From: Hyphomonadaceae bacterium
GTDB taxonomy: Bacteria > Pseudomonadota > Alphaproteobacteria > Caulobacterales > Aquidulcibacteraceae
Assembly: GCA_023384105.1 (NCBI GenBank)
Contig: JAHDXR010000010.1
Span: forward strand, 62,001 to 126,000
DNA: 64,000 nucleotides
Direction of reading: 5' to 3'
The translations under genes were made by a program, and so were the position numbers. Numbering within the stretch: the first letter of the stretch is position 1; every line of letters begins with the position of its first letter. The notes under the pieces are model-generated. The model searched no databases. It saw nothing but the letters and a program-made list of their open reading frames with translations, and had not been told where the DNA came from. Positions 6,625 to 34,898 of this stretch are shown in pieces.

Positions 6625-7833
6625 TCAGGCCGGCGCGGGCGGCGGCGTTTCGGTCTTGCTCGCGATTGCGTCCGCGACGCGGAACATGACCGGGTTGAGC
6701 GCAATCGAGATCAGCGCGCTGGCGAGGATGAGGTTGTAGGTCTCGTCCGACAGCAGGTCGAGGCGCACGCCCATGCCGGCGAGCACGAACGAGAACTCGC
6801 CGATTTGCGCCAGCGAGGCGGCGATCATCAGCCCGGTGCGCAAAGACAGCTTGTAGAGCGAGGTGATGGCGAGCGCTGCGGCGCTTTTGCCGATGATGAT
6901 GATGAACACCACCGCCAGCACGCCGATCGGTTCGCGCACCACCGTCATCGGGTCGAACAGCATGCCGACCGAGACGAAGAACAGCACTGCGAAGGTGTCG
7001 CGCAGCGGCAGCGAATCCTCGGCGATCTTGTGGGTGAACTTGGTGCCGTTCATCACCACGCCGGCCAGGAACGCGCCGAGCGCGAACGAGGCGTCGAACA
7101 GCTCGGAGGCGAGATAGGCCACGCCAAGCGCCAGCGTGAGCGTGCCCAGCGACATGAGCTCGCGCGACTTCAGATGCGCGATCTGGACGATCAGCCACGG
7201 GAACAGCCGCGCGCCGACGAACAGCATGAGCGCGACGAAGACGGTGATCTTGCCGAGCGTCAGCGCCAGCGCGCCCAGCGTGTCCTGGACCGAAGCGCCG
7301 CCATTGCCGGTCGCCGCTGCCGCGAGGGAAGGCAGCAGCACGATAGCGAGGACAATGGCGATATCCTCGACTACCAGCCAGCCGACGCAGATGCGGCCGT
7401 TTTCGGTCTTCACCAGCTGGCGGTCCTCGAGCGCGCGCAGGAGCACCACCGTGCTCGCCACCGAAAGCGAAAAGCCCAGCGTGACGGCCTCGGCCGCACC
7501 CATGCCCATCAGCGTGCCGACGACATAGCCGAGCAAGGTGGCGGCGCTCATCTGCACCAGCGCCCCCGGTATGGCGATGCCGCGGACGGCCCACAGGTCC
7601 GTCAGCGAGAATTTCAGCCCGACGCCGAACATCAGCAGGATCACGCCGATTTCGGCGAACTGAAAGGCCAGTTCGGCGTCGCCGACGAATCCCGGCGTGA
7701 ACGGCCCCACGGCGACGCCGGCGAGCAGGTATCCGACCAGCGGGGAGATGCGAAAGCGCTGCGCGATGGCGCCCAGGAAGAACGCCAGCACGATCGCGGC
7801 GACGAGGTTCACGATGAGCGAATGATCTTCCAC
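6625..7833 (-). CDS. CPA2-family cation:proton antiporter
   Basis: Inner-membrane antiporter of the monovalent cation:proton antiporter-2 family (KefB/YbaL/RosB type), about 402 residues and largely hydrophobic. GYLLAGVAVGP, GVILLMFGVGL and the discontinuous-helix region VVEDIAIVLAIVLLP with its conserved Glu-Asp are characteristic. FVSVGMLFDP near the end is also typical. The TrkA-N regulatory domain of KefB/KefC is missing; the protein ends soon after the last helix. The ORF opens further upstream, but I prefer the GTG at VEDHSLIVNL, where the first membrane helix begins. It is divergent from the PLP decarboxylase. Ion specificity (K+ or Na+) is not known. Confidence 0.85.
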   Translation of the reverse strand: MEDHSLIVNLVAAIVLAFFLGAIAQRFRISPLVGYLLAGVAVGPFTPGFVGDAELAFQFAEIGVILLMFGVGLKFSLTDLWAVRGIAIPGALVQMSAATLLGYVVGTLMGMGAAEAVTLGFSLSVASTVVLLRALEDRQLVKTENGRICVGWLVVEDIAIVLAIVLLPSLAAAATGNGGASVQDTLGALALTLGKITVFVALMLFVGARLFPWLIVQIAHLKSRELMSLGTLTLALGVAYLASELFDASFALGAFLAGVVMNGTKFTHKIAEDSLPLRDTFAVLFFVSVGMLFDPMTVVREPIGVLAVVFIIIIGKSAAALAITSLYKLSLRTGLMIAASLAQIGEFSFVLAGMGVRLDLLSDETYNLILASALISIALNPVMFRVADAIASKTETPPPAPA

Positions 7834-8006
7834 GCGGCGGCTCTGCTCCCGGGACACGGAGGCCGTCCGGCCGTCGCTGCGCGGCGGTCGCCGGTCGGCG
7901 TATTGTGATGCGTGGACGCACTGCAACGGATTACGGCGTCGCTGTCAAACACGATCTCTGGATGACGGCCCGATGCGGGCCTATGTCCGGCGCCGGAGGA
8001 ACGCCG

Positions 8007-9425
8007 ATGACGGATCGTATGTGGCGCGCCGTGCTGGCGGATGTGGCCGAGCGCGCGGCGGCGTACCGGGAAGCCGCGCCGCAGCGGCCGCACAGCCCGC
8101 GCCGGAGCTACGCCGAAGCGCGCGCGGCGTTCGACGCCCCGACGCCCGAACGCGGCGCGGACGGCGCGCAGGTGATCGCCGAGCTGGCGCGGCTGGCCGA
8201 GCCCGGATTGGCCAATATCGTCGGCCCGCGCTTCTTCGGCTGGGTGATGGGGCAGAGCCATCCCACCGGCGTCGCGGCGGACTGGCTGCTCAGCGCCTGG
8301 GGACAGAATGTCGGCAACGCGCATGCGACGCCGTCGGCCTCCGCCTGCGAAGAGGTGGTGGCGCGCTGGCTGCTCGATCTGCTCGACCTGCCGCGGCAGT
8401 CGTCGGTCGGTTTCGTCAGCGGGGCGACGATGGCGAACTTCACCTGCCTGGCGGCGGCGCGCGGAGAGGTGCTGCGGCGCGTGGACTGGGACGTGGAGGC
8501 GGACGGGCTGATCGGCGCGCCGCCGGTGCATGTGATCGTCGGCGAGGAGGCGCACTCGACGGTGTTCTCGGCGCTGCGCTATCTGGGGTTCGGCGCCAGG
8601 CGCATCGTCAGCGCGCCGGCGGATGACGAGGGGCGCATGCGCGCCGGCGCGTTCGCGCGCGCGATTGCACCGCTGGATGGGCCGATCATCGCCATCGCGC
8701 AGGCCGGCCACATCAATTCGGGCGCGTTCGATCCGTTCGAGGAGATCGCCGAAGCCGCGCGCGCGAAAGGCGCGTGGCTGCATGTCGACGGCGCGTTCGG
8801 ACTGTGGGCGCGCGCCTGCGGGGACCGCGCGCATCTGGGGCGCGGGCTGGAGCTGTGCGACTCGTGGGGCGTGGACGGACACAAGTGGCTGCAGACGCCG
8901 TACGACAGCGCCTACGCCATCGTCCGCGACGCCGATGCGCACCGTCGCGCGACGGGCATTTCCGCCAGCTACCTGCCGGAAGGCGAGGAACGCCATCCGG
9001 CGGACTACACGCCCGAACTGTCGCGCCGGGCGCGCGGTTTCGCCGCCTGGGCCACGATCAAGGCGTTCGGGCGCGAAGGGATCGACGCGCTGGTCAGCCG
9101 CGATTGCGCGCTGGCGCGGCGGATGGCCGAACGGCTGAACGCGGCGCCGGACGTCGAGGTGCTGAACGATGTCGTGCTGAACCAGGTGGCGGTGCGCCTC
9201 GGCTCGGACATGGACGGCGCGCTTGCCGATGCGCTGACGGCGCGCACGATCGCGCGGATTCAGCGCGAAGGCGTCTGCTTCGTCGGCGGCGCGCATTGGC
9301 GCGGGCGCCAGATCATCCGCATCTCCGTGTGCGGTATGAACACGACCGAAGCCGACGCCGACGCCAGCGCCGAAGCGATCCTCGGCGCGTGGCGAGCGGA
9401 GCGCGCCGCCGGCGGCGCACGCTGA
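8007..9425 (+). CDS. PLP-dependent group II decarboxylase family protein
   Basis: Fold-type I PLP enzyme of the group II decarboxylase family (aromatic amino acid/glutamate decarboxylase-like), 472 residues from the ATG preceded by GGAGGA at 6 bases. The ORF track extends 34 codons further upstream without support. Visible: TPSASACEEVVARWLL early, GFVSGATMANFTCLAAAR for cofactor binding, WLHVDGAFGLWA with the PLP aspartate, and the Schiff-base lysine in SWGVDGHKWLQTPYD. Substrate is uncertain; many homologs are named only aminotransferase or decarboxylase. It stands alone, divergent from the antiporter and convergent with rnk. Confidence 0.8.
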   Translation: MTDRMWRAVLADVAERAAAYREAAPQRPHSPRRSYAEARAAFDAPTPERGADGAQVIAELARLAEPGLANIVGPRFFGWVMGQSHPTGVAADWLLSAWGQNVGNAHATPSASACEEVVARWLLDLLDLPRQSSVGFVSGATMANFTCLAAARGEVLRRVDWDVEADGLIGAPPVHVIVGEEAHSTVFSALRYLGFGARRIVSAPADDEGRMRAGAFARAIAPLDGPIIAIAQAGHINSGAFDPFEEIAEAARAKGAWLHVDGAFGLWARACGDRAHLGRGLELCDSWGVDGHKWLQTPYDSAYAIVRDADAHRRATGISASYLPEGEERHPADYTPELSRRARGFAAWATIKAFGREGIDALVSRDCALARRMAERLNAAPDVEVLNDVVLNQVAVRLGSDMDGALADALTARTIARIQREGVCFVGGAHWRGRQIIRISVCGMNTTEADADASAEAILGAWRAERAAGGAR

Positions 9426-32163: not shown

Positions 32164-32784
32164 TCATGGCGCCAGGACGAACACCGCCTGTTCGGCGAAC
32201 CAGTTGGCGCGCCACAGCGTCCTGGCGAACGGCGCGCCGGTGTGGCCGCGCGAGATCGGCACGGCGCGCTCGACGCTCATGCGCATGTCGCGGGCGAGGC
32301 CGGCGAAATCGCGGACCGTGCAGGGCGCATCGTCGGTCCAGCGCGCCAGCTTGCCCTGAAATATCATGCGCAGCCGCGGGCGCCAGTGCCCGGCGTTGTT
32401 GATCGAGACGATCACCCGTTCGCCCACGCGCGCGGCCGTGCGCAAGACGGCGGCGGGATCGTGCAGCTTCATCAGCGCGTGCGAGAAGATGATGTAATCG
32501 AACGCTGCGCTCGGGAATTGTTCGAGGTCACGCTCAGCGTCGCCCTGCACCACCGAAAGCCCGCGCGAGACGCAGCGGTGCACTTTCGCCGGATCGATAT
32601 CCAGGCCGCGGACGCTGGCGCTGCATTCCTTGATCAGCATGCGCATCAGCGCGCCGTCGCCGCAGCCGACATCGAGCACGCGCGCGCCGTCGGCGACGAT
32701 CTGGGCGATCACGTCGTGATCGGCGCGCGGCTGAAGGCCGGTGCGTTCGACCGGCGCCGGATGAACGAGTTCAAGCTGCGCCAT
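32164..32784 (-). CDS. metW: MetW, methionine biosynthesis protein
   Basis: 206-residue class I methyltransferase-fold protein, obligate companion of MetX in many proteobacteria. Motif I is ARVLDVGCGDGALMRMLI, followed by GLDIDPAKVHRCVSRGLSVV and DYIIFSHALMKLHDP. It shares one base with the metX stop (TGATG), so the two are translated together. MetW is thought to be needed for MetX activity in some species. Its methyltransferase activity is unproven. Confidence 0.9.
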   Translation of the reverse strand: MAQLELVHPAPVERTGLQPRADHDVIAQIVADGARVLDVGCGDGALMRMLIKECSASVRGLDIDPAKVHRCVSRGLSVVQGDAERDLEQFPSAAFDYIIFSHALMKLHDPAAVLRTAARVGERVIVSINNAGHWRPRLRMIFQGKLARWTDDAPCTVRDFAGLARDMRMSVERAVPISRGHTGAPFARTLWRANWFAEQAVFVLAP

Positions 32785-33950
32785 CAGCGGGCTCCTGCCT
32801 GCAGCGCCAGGCCGCGGGCGGTGGCGGCCGCGTCGATGAAGCCGGTCAGCGCCGCTTCGAACGCGGGTTCCTCGCCCAGATAGGCGTCGTGGCCGTTGTC
32901 GCTCTCGATCTCGATATACGAAGCCTCGGCCCCGGCGCCGATCAAGGCGCGGGCGATCTCGCGGCTTTCCTCGACCGGATAGCGCCAGTCGCTCGAAAAC
33001 GCGAACACGCCGTGCCGCGTCGCGGCGCTTTGGAACGCGTTGGAGAGCCGGCCGCCGAAATCGCTGGCGAGATCGAAGCCGTCCATCGCCCGCGAGAGAT
33101 AGAGATACGAATTGGCGTCGAAGCGATCAACATAGCCGGCTTGGTTCGGGCGCGCGAGGCCGCTGTCGTTCTCGACGGTGAAGCCGAAGCGCTCCTTGCT
33201 GCGCGCGCCGTCGCAGCGCGCCCGCACCTCGCTCGCGGAGAGGCCGGCGATCTGCGCCGCGGTGCGCGCCACGCCGACGCCGCGCGTGGGGCGCACGCCG
33301 TGGGTCAGGTAGGCGCCGTTGCGCCAGTCCGGGTCGGCCATGATGGCCTGGCGGCCGAGTTCGGCGAAGGCGATGTTCTGCGCCGACTGTTTCGCCGCCG
33401 CCGCCACCGTGGCGCAGGCGAAGACCCGGCGCGGATAGGCGCTCGCCCAGTTGAGCGCCTGCATGCCGCCGAGCCCCGGGCCGATGACGAGGAACAGGCT
33501 CTCGATGCCGAGCGCTTCGACCAGCATCGCTTGCGCGCGCATGGTGTCGCCGATGGTGATCGCCGGCAGGCGCAGGCCGTAGGGCTGGCCGTCCGGCGCG
33601 ATCGAGCCTGGGCCGGTCGAGCCCATCGAGCCGCCGAGCGTGTTGGCGCAGACGACGAAGAAGCGATTGGTGTCGATCGGCCGGCCGGGGCCGACGATGC
33701 GCGGCCACCAGGCCGGACGGCCCGTCACCGGGTTGGGGCTGGCGACGAACTGGTCTCCCGCCAGCGCGTGGCACACCAGCACCGCATTGGTGCGGTCATG
33801 GTTGAGCGCGCCATAGGTCTCGAACGCGATGGTCAGCGGCGCAAGCGTCTCGCCGCTCTGCAGCTGGAGCGGCGAGGTCTTGTCGAAGCTCAAGGAGCGC
33901 ACGCCGCCCGCCGCTTGCAGTTTCGCCGCCGCTCCGCCCGTGTGAATCAT
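32784..33950 (-). CDS. metX: MetX homoserine O-acyltransferase family protein with altered nucleophile site
   Basis: 388-residue alpha/beta-hydrolase of the MetX family, which acylates homoserine in methionine synthesis. VLVCHALAGDQFV, TGRPAWWPRIVGPGRPIDT, CANTLGGSMGSTGPGS and the catalytic FAFSSDWRYP aspartate and SDNGHDAYLG histidine are conserved. The nucleophile elbow reads IGPGLGGMQALNW: the catalytic serine of the family motif (GGSMGGMQ) is glycine, about residue 159. I set the start at MIHTGG; MLKRRSS at 33986 is an alternative, while the ORF track runs antisense through the chorismate mutase gene. It is coupled to metW. Either this enzyme is inactive or it works differently. Confidence 0.85.
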   Translation of the reverse strand: MIHTGGAAAKLQAAGGVRSLSFDKTSPLQLQSGETLAPLTIAFETYGALNHDRTNAVLVCHALAGDQFVASPNPVTGRPAWWPRIVGPGRPIDTNRFFVVCANTLGGSMGSTGPGSIAPDGQPYGLRLPAITIGDTMRAQAMLVEALGIESLFLVIGPGLGGMQALNWASAYPRRVFACATVAAAAKQSAQNIAFAELGRQAIMADPDWRNGAYLTHGVRPTRGVGVARTAAQIAGLSASEVRARCDGARSKERFGFTVENDSGLARPNQAGYVDRFDANSYLYLSRAMDGFDLASDFGGRLSNAFQSAATRHGVFAFSSDWRYPVEESREIARALIGAGAEASYIEIESDNGHDAYLGEEPAFEAALTGFIDAAATARGLALQAGAR

Positions 33951-34073: not shown

Positions 34074-34898
34074 ATGAACGACGCCGCTCCCCCGCCGCCG
34101 GACGACCCGAACGATCCGATCGGATCGGTTCGGCGCCAAATCGACGACCTCGACTCCCAGCTGCTCGCGCTGGTGACGCAGCGGCTTCAGCTTGCGGAGA
34201 AGATCGTCCAGGCCAAGGCGCCGCAGTCGGGACTGCCGATCCGGCCCGGCCGGGAAGTGGCGCTGCTGCGCCGGCTTGTTTCGGAGGCGCAGCCGCCGCT
34301 GGAGCGCGAACTGGTGGTTGAGCTGTGGCGGGCGCTGATCGGCGCCAGCCTGCGCCGCCAGCGCGTGATCGATGTCGTCGTCGGCGGCGGCCGCGGCGAT
34401 CCCACGCGGCTGTTCGACATCGCCCGGCGTCATTTCGGCGCCCGAACGCGGATCAAGGATGTCGGCGAGCCGCAGATGGCGCTGCAGAAGGCGGCCGAGA
34501 ATCCGGACGCATTGGTGGCCATCACCTGGTGGCCGTCCGCGCCCGGCGTCGGCGCCTGGTGGCCGGCGCTGAGCGAGCGGCGTTTTCACTCCCTCAACAT
34601 CATCGCCGGCCTGCCGCTGCTCGCGACCACCGACGAGCCGGAAGCGGCGCTGTTCGCCGCCAGCCCGATCGAGCAGGCGGGCGGCGACCAGACCATGCTG
34701 TTCGTGTTCGACCGCCATCACCGGCTGCAGCGCGCGCTGAAGGAGGCGGGTCTCGCCGGCGTCGAGGCGGCGCGGGCCGAGCCGCGGGCGCTGGTCCGTG
34801 TCGAGGGCTTCGTGCCGGCGGACGATCCGCGGCTTGCGTTGATGCAGCGGGCGCTGTCCGACGACGTGCGCGTGCTTGGCTCCTACGCGCGGGTCTGA
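34074..34898 (+). CDS. chorismate mutase with C-terminal prephenate-dehydratase-like extension
   Basis: 274 residues. The N-terminal AroQ-type chorismate mutase (about 15-95) has RRQIDDLDSQLLALVTQRL, LAEKIVQAKA and RELVVELWRALIGASLRRQ. The C-terminal ~170 residues (VDVVVGGGRGDPTRLFDIA, ENPDALVAITWW, GLPLLATTDEPEAALFAAS) resemble a degenerate type-2 periplasmic-binding/prephenate dehydratase fold, but lack a TRF motif, so a dehydratase activity is unlikely. A real dehydratase is encoded at 56.7 kb. ATG at MNDAAPPP chosen over the ORF-track start. 2 bases separate it from tyrC. Confidence 0.8.
   Translation: MNDAAPPPPDDPNDPIGSVRRQIDDLDSQLLALVTQRLQLAEKIVQAKAPQSGLPIRPGREVALLRRLVSEAQPPLERELVVELWRALIGASLRRQRVIDVVVGGGRGDPTRLFDIARRHFGARTRIKDVGEPQMALQKAAENPDALVAITWWPSAPGVGAWWPALSERRFHSLNIIAGLPLLATTDEPEAALFAASPIEQAGGDQTMLFVFDRHHRLQRALKEAGLAGVEAARAEPRALVRVEGFVPADDPRLALMQRALSDDVRVLGSYARV

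Follow-up and report, generated by a model that had tools for sequence, protein, structure and literature searches.

In the 64,000-nucleotide window analyzed here, metX1 (32784..33950, minus strand, 388 aa) encodes a MetX homolog in which glycine occupies the position of the catalytic serine nucleophile. We propose, with moderate confidence, that this protein is a conserved pseudo-acyltransferase freed of homoserine acylation, most likely serving as an obligate partner, structural or allosteric, to the co-diverged, SAM-binding MetW encoded next to it. As in a pseudoenzyme, the catalytic residue has been lost while purifying selection persists. The genus mostly relies on a second homolog, MetX2, and the metX1-metW pair has probably acquired a function that differs from the textbook one.

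The window protein is recognized as MetX by the NCBIfam model PRK00175 (409.5 bits, cut-off 331) and does not reach the cut-off of TIGR01392 (357.7 vs 500). Its elbow reads V-I-G-P-G-L-G-G-M-Q, with no serine nucleophile, and codon 159, mapped by alignment position, is GGG (33474..33476, minus strand), confirming the replacement that the initial annotation had read from the sequence. That annotation was also right that the acid and base of the ancestral triad are retained (Asp321, 32988..32990; His354, 32889..32891; both minus strand) and that metW is coupled downstream: the metW ATG (gene at 32164..32784, minus strand) overlaps the metX1 stop codon by 1 nt. On the other side, metX1 has a chorismate-mutase-type gene as its divergent neighbor (34074..34898, plus strand). 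The order tyrA - chorismate mutase - metX - metW is identical in the lineages that bear serine, so metX1 is the ortholog altered in place and not a spare paralog. In G009, a hisC-like aminotransferase gene lies between the chorismate mutase gene and tyrA (L050, ~7100-8460), whereas in the Gly-clade genomes with which it was compared this site has closed up. No SAM-II riboswitch was found at metX1-metW in the window or in the other metX1 loci scanned, and nothing above chance level was detected when promoters and terminators were sought around metX1.

The comparison set was the window's genus, represented by 30 Hyphomonadaceae-type genomes, most of them MAGs, and metX1 was present in every one that was more than 79% complete. 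The intact Gly-clade genes encode glycine in 24 of 25 cases and glutamate in one (G006). Two further copies with split frames (L034 in G023 and L036 in G015) also read GPGMGG, and all readable Gly-clade copies together give glycine in 26/27 and glutamate in 1/27. In both, the frame breaks at a CCCCC run, the assemblies are of long-read type, and the breaks are likely to be long-read indels, not biology. The sole congener keeping serine in metX1 is G009. Relatives were sought more widely in a scan of 84,980 species, from which the best 80 matches were taken; 72 have serine and 8 have glycine. All 8 glycine-bearing relatives belong to the window's genus, being labeled Hyphomonadaceae or Alphaproteobacteria MAGs, and the nearest relatives outside the genus among these best 80 have serine without exception (72/72). 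In a maximum-likelihood tree the glycine sequences form one clade, with G009 as its neighbor, split from G009 and all serine sequences with a branch support of 100, which indicates that the serine was lost once.

The alignment with close relatives that the initial annotation had proposed as a check thus finds glycine fixed in the clade. A sequencing or assembly error as the source of Gly159 is ruled out by its fixation in 26 independent genomes. An error had already been judged unlikely, and this judgment holds through the clade-wide fixation, but the argument first given for it, that GGG lies two changes from AGC or AGT, is not what decides the matter; close serine-bearing relatives encode the nucleophile by TCN codons.

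The loss of serine is accompanied by changes elsewhere in the active site. The tunnel residues of mycobacterial MetX are Thr61, Arg227, Tyr234, and Asp351 (M. tuberculosis numbering; PMC6937278). In the Gly clade (n=25), Tyr234 is lost from 25/25 sequences, with Gly236 in its place in the window (33243..33245, minus strand), and Thr61 of the HALTGD motif is kept in 15/25, the window having Ala64 (33759..33761, minus strand). Arg227 and Asp351 are each kept in 24/25. In the numbering of the window protein, Asp321 is kept in 25/25, His354 in 24/25, and the tunnel residue Arg229 in 24/25, and these three could point to remaining chemistry. One genome, G017 (L024), has Asn for the triad His, and G006 (L018), in addition to its Glu at the elbow, has Glu for Asp355, the Asp that follows the triad His.

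The 127 columns that are invariant across 73 serine sequences were compared with the Gly clade, in which 32 of them fall below 50% and 74 (58%) remain at 90% or above. The lost columns include Cys108 (25/25) and the FQxESYLRxQG motif of the lid, whose ESYL is degraded or deleted across the clade; the corresponding segment of the window protein spans residues ~253-278 (33117..33194, minus strand). Gln188, Leu198, His313, and Arg323 are newly near-invariant in the Gly clade, a pattern that may point to a new active site instead of one that has gone dead. Neither the elbow nor the catalytic loops have gained an invariant Ser, Cys, or Thr in the clade, which argues against the option, raised in the initial annotation, of another nucleophile.

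The retained fold was evident in an AlphaFold model built from 64 sequences (pLDDT 86.7, pTM 0.89), which replaced a model from 23 sequences (pLDDT 69). The alpha/beta-hydrolase fold with its helical lid is kept, residues 260-276 of the lid being disordered in the model (pLDDT <50). The top PDB match is the MetX structure 2pl5 (TM 0.80-0.85), and the closest solved structures are MetX enzymes. The model has a strand at 152-158, residue 159, and a helix at 160-171, the arrangement of a nucleophile elbow. Because residue 159 alone stands between strand and helix, the model leaves no other residue to fill the elbow slot, and a different serine there, which would have overturned the original observation, is absent.

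A second MetX or a MetA had been suggested as something to look for, and only the former was found: MetA is absent from all 30 genomes. The second, distant MetX of the window genome (MetX2; L049:5851-6951:-) scores 315 bits against PRK08775 (cut-off 296), has an intact GASYGG elbow, and is followed by metB (TIGR02080, 556 bits, cut-off 504.55). The MetX2 and MetB pair occurs in 22/27 Gly-clade genomes, and MetX2 has serine in all 19 sequences read. In the window genome, metX2-metB lies downstream of a SAM-II riboswitch (RF00521; L049:7218-7295, minus strand), as it does in most genomes with the pair. Second SAM-II matches were seen at G021:C1:2987076-2987153, at G015:C5:1697607-1697689, and on C348 and C504 of G003, and one genome encodes a second MetX2-like gene (L080, G019:C5:41120-42109), 43% identical to the MetX2 of the window genome.

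The serine-bearing G009 has MetZ and no MetX2, with a SAM-II riboswitch upstream of metZ (L051:5550-5627). The serine-bearing sister genomes G046-G049 likewise have a MetZ ortholog and no MetX2, so that the pattern holds for 5/5 close serine lineages. No MetZ ortholog was found in any glycine genome, where the best matches are paralogs ~40% identical. Because the serine lineages have MetZ and the glycine lineages do not, the ancestral route was MetX1 and MetW with MetZ, and MetX2 with MetB replaced it. Fisher tests of the MetZ association (p 5e-6) and the MetX2 association (p 1e-3) take no account of relatedness, and since roughly one evolutionary switch underlies both associations, the values are not used as proof. 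As for methionine uptake by MetQ as a reason for the loss, the 30 genomes yielded one marginal match only.

Selection on the gene, asserted in the initial annotation from the locus alone, can now be given a value, with an omega of ~0.10. In a codon model of the 18 shared species, omega was 0.103 for metX1, 0.162 for metW, 0.160 for metX2, and 0.101 for metB; with all Gly-clade species it was 0.096 for metX1 and 0.144 for metW, and in a functional Phenylobacterium reference 0.079 for metX and 0.082 for metW, all from a single omega fitted per tree with quite diverged synonymous sites, so that small differences should not be over-read. Both metX1 and metW are under strong purifying selection that is mildly relaxed. 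A metW gene adjoins every metX1, and MetW has diverged in step with it. The window MetW matches PF07021 (159.5 bits), carries the SAM-binding motif VLDVGCGDGAL, and falls under the equivalog cut-off of TIGR02081 (147.7 vs 189.5). MetW of the Gly clade retains the SAM-binding motif, but the PNFGHW and WWxTPNIHLCT motifs are missing from it; both are present, slightly varied, in G009. The function of MetW beside MetX is poorly defined; in the literature found, the statement in PMC4239095 that cites Alaminos and Ramos (2001) goes no further than the suggestion that MetW facilitates homoserine acylation.

MetX2 was not found in five glycine genomes, of which G010, G022, and G045 are nearly complete (93-99%) and G014 and G024 less so, which leaves MetX1 as the only homoserine acyltransferase homolog found in them. 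The three nearly complete genomes also lack MetB, MetZ, MetA, and SAM-II, and keep metX1, metW, and metH. They appear to have lost the branch from homoserine to homocysteine, although three of these absences relate to a single locus and could come from one assembly gap in each genome. As metX1-metW is kept where the homoserine branch seems to be gone, its role is in our view not homoserine acylation. We tentatively suggest that the glycine form of MetX1 and MetW make up a new functional module, derived from a methionine enzyme and its partner, whose SAM-binding methyltransferase either cooperates with a remodeled pseudo-acyltransferase or is under its control; the persistence of the pair in lineages without the whole MetX2/MetB/MetZ branch would place its job outside homoserine acylation.

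The main rival explanation, possible but in our judgment doubtful, is that MetX1 is an enzyme of a different, nucleophile-free chemistry, with His354 and Asp321 together acting as general base, Arg229 binding a carboxylate, and perhaps a CoA ester or some other acyl acceptor taking part. In its favor are the strong purifying selection on metX1, the retention of Asp, His, Arg, and Asp355 in 24-25 of 25 sequences, and the four new near-invariant residues, one of which, Arg323, lies two residues from Asp321. This account is weakened by the Asn that replaces His354 in G017, a complete genome, and by the double substitution of G006; moreover, with 58% of the serine family's invariant columns kept in any case, a few kept residues weigh little, and the lid segment that lines the tunnel has become shorter and is modeled with little order. 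We consider it unlikely that MetX1 is still a homoserine acyltransferase which, possibly aided by MetW, transfers the acyl group directly within a ternary complex and so bypasses the acyl-enzyme. The Asp-His pair and the substrate Arg are kept, and G010, G022, and G045, which retain MetX1 and metH without MetX2, MetB, or MetZ, need a source of homocysteine or methionine, but the tunnel Tyr is lost in all 25 sequences, Thr is variable, and the riboswitch-controlled MetX2-MetB of most of the clade would be redundant. Those three genomes also lack a consumer of acyl-homoserine of the MetB or MetZ type, only MetC-like and PRK07049-like proteins having been found.

A different nucleophile, in the form of a Ser, Cys, or Thr elsewhere in the protein, is very improbable. 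The invariant residues of this kind are Cys60, Cys101, and Thr112, and Ser170 and Cys179 have newly become near-invariant. Ser170, however, is 11 residues distant, where the elbow helix ends, Cys179 is 20 residues distant, in the strand that follows, and the model has only residue 159 at the elbow, where the clade has Gly or, in G006, Glu. Least credible of all is that metX1 is a decaying remnant awaiting loss, as might be read from the missing catalytic and tunnel residues and from a rate slightly above that of functional MetX (omega 0.096-0.103 vs 0.079). Its frame is open in 25/25 well-sequenced species despite deep divergence (to ~69% identity), the other two copies being split only at the CCCCC run. 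MetB has the same omega of ~0.10 in these species, and the gene is absent from no genome above the 79% completeness mark.

In the pseudo-acyltransferase account that we prefer, the ancestor of the clade would have switched its route from homoserine to homocysteine from MetX1 and MetZ, with SAM-II acting on MetZ, to MetX2 and MetB, again under SAM-II. MetX1, freed from homoserine acylation, would then have lost its nucleophile to glycine, together with the tunnel Tyr and the lid motif. Glycine is the residue that most easily adopts the strained conformation of the elbow. The fold, the Asp-His pair, and the tight coupling to MetW have been kept, and what remains for MetX1 would most likely be an obligate partnership with MetW, either structural or allosteric. 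The first option of the initial annotation, an inactive enzyme, is strongly supported as far as the ancestral reaction is concerned, by the concerted loss of tunnel residues and the replacement of the pathway step. We infer that MetX1 has no acyltransferase activity; a physical MetX1-MetW complex, and its output, are likewise putative.

A clade with a nucleophile-less MetX and a MetX-MetW pair that nonetheless remains under strong selection sets the pair apart from the reaction, so that MetW's own function can be tested directly. The change is also a clear-cut non-orthologous replacement: one riboswitch class, SAM-II, sits at the committed step both beforehand, at metZ in G009, and afterwards, at metX2-metB in the glycine genomes. 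For annotation, the consequence is that metX1, like its counterparts across the genus, satisfies the MetX model and would be miscalled homoserine O-acetyltransferase. In the literature searched, we found no report of MetX pseudoenzymes or of a MetX with serine replaced by glycine.

With the known MetX enzymes (2pl5, 2b61, 6pux; PRK00175 and TIGR01392), MetX1 shares the fold, the order with metW, the Asp and His of the triad, and the substrate Arg, and it scores 301.9 bits to 2pl5. Unlike them, it has no Ser nucleophile and no tunnel Tyr, its Thr is not conserved, and its lid motif is degraded; its setting also differs, with no SAM-II control and, in most of the clade, a second MetX. MetX2 of the same genome, a homoserine O-succinyltransferase of the PRK08775 type, belongs to the same superfamily, but it has an intact GASYGG and GHD, is only ~29-31% identical to MetX1 over part of its length, and sits beside metB and behind SAM-II. 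The window MetW resembles the MetW family (PF07021, TIGR02081) in its Pfam match, its SAM motif, and its position after metX, and differs from it in the sub-cut-off TIGR02081 score and the two lost motifs. Partner pseudoenzymes of bacteria and eukaryotes, such as the iRhoms (PMC3149277, PMC6451368), offer the closest parallel to the reading we favor: partner functions have been demonstrated for proteins of the iRhom type, to which MetX1 is likened by analogy only, and there too the catalytic residue has been lost while the protein and its fold are conserved.
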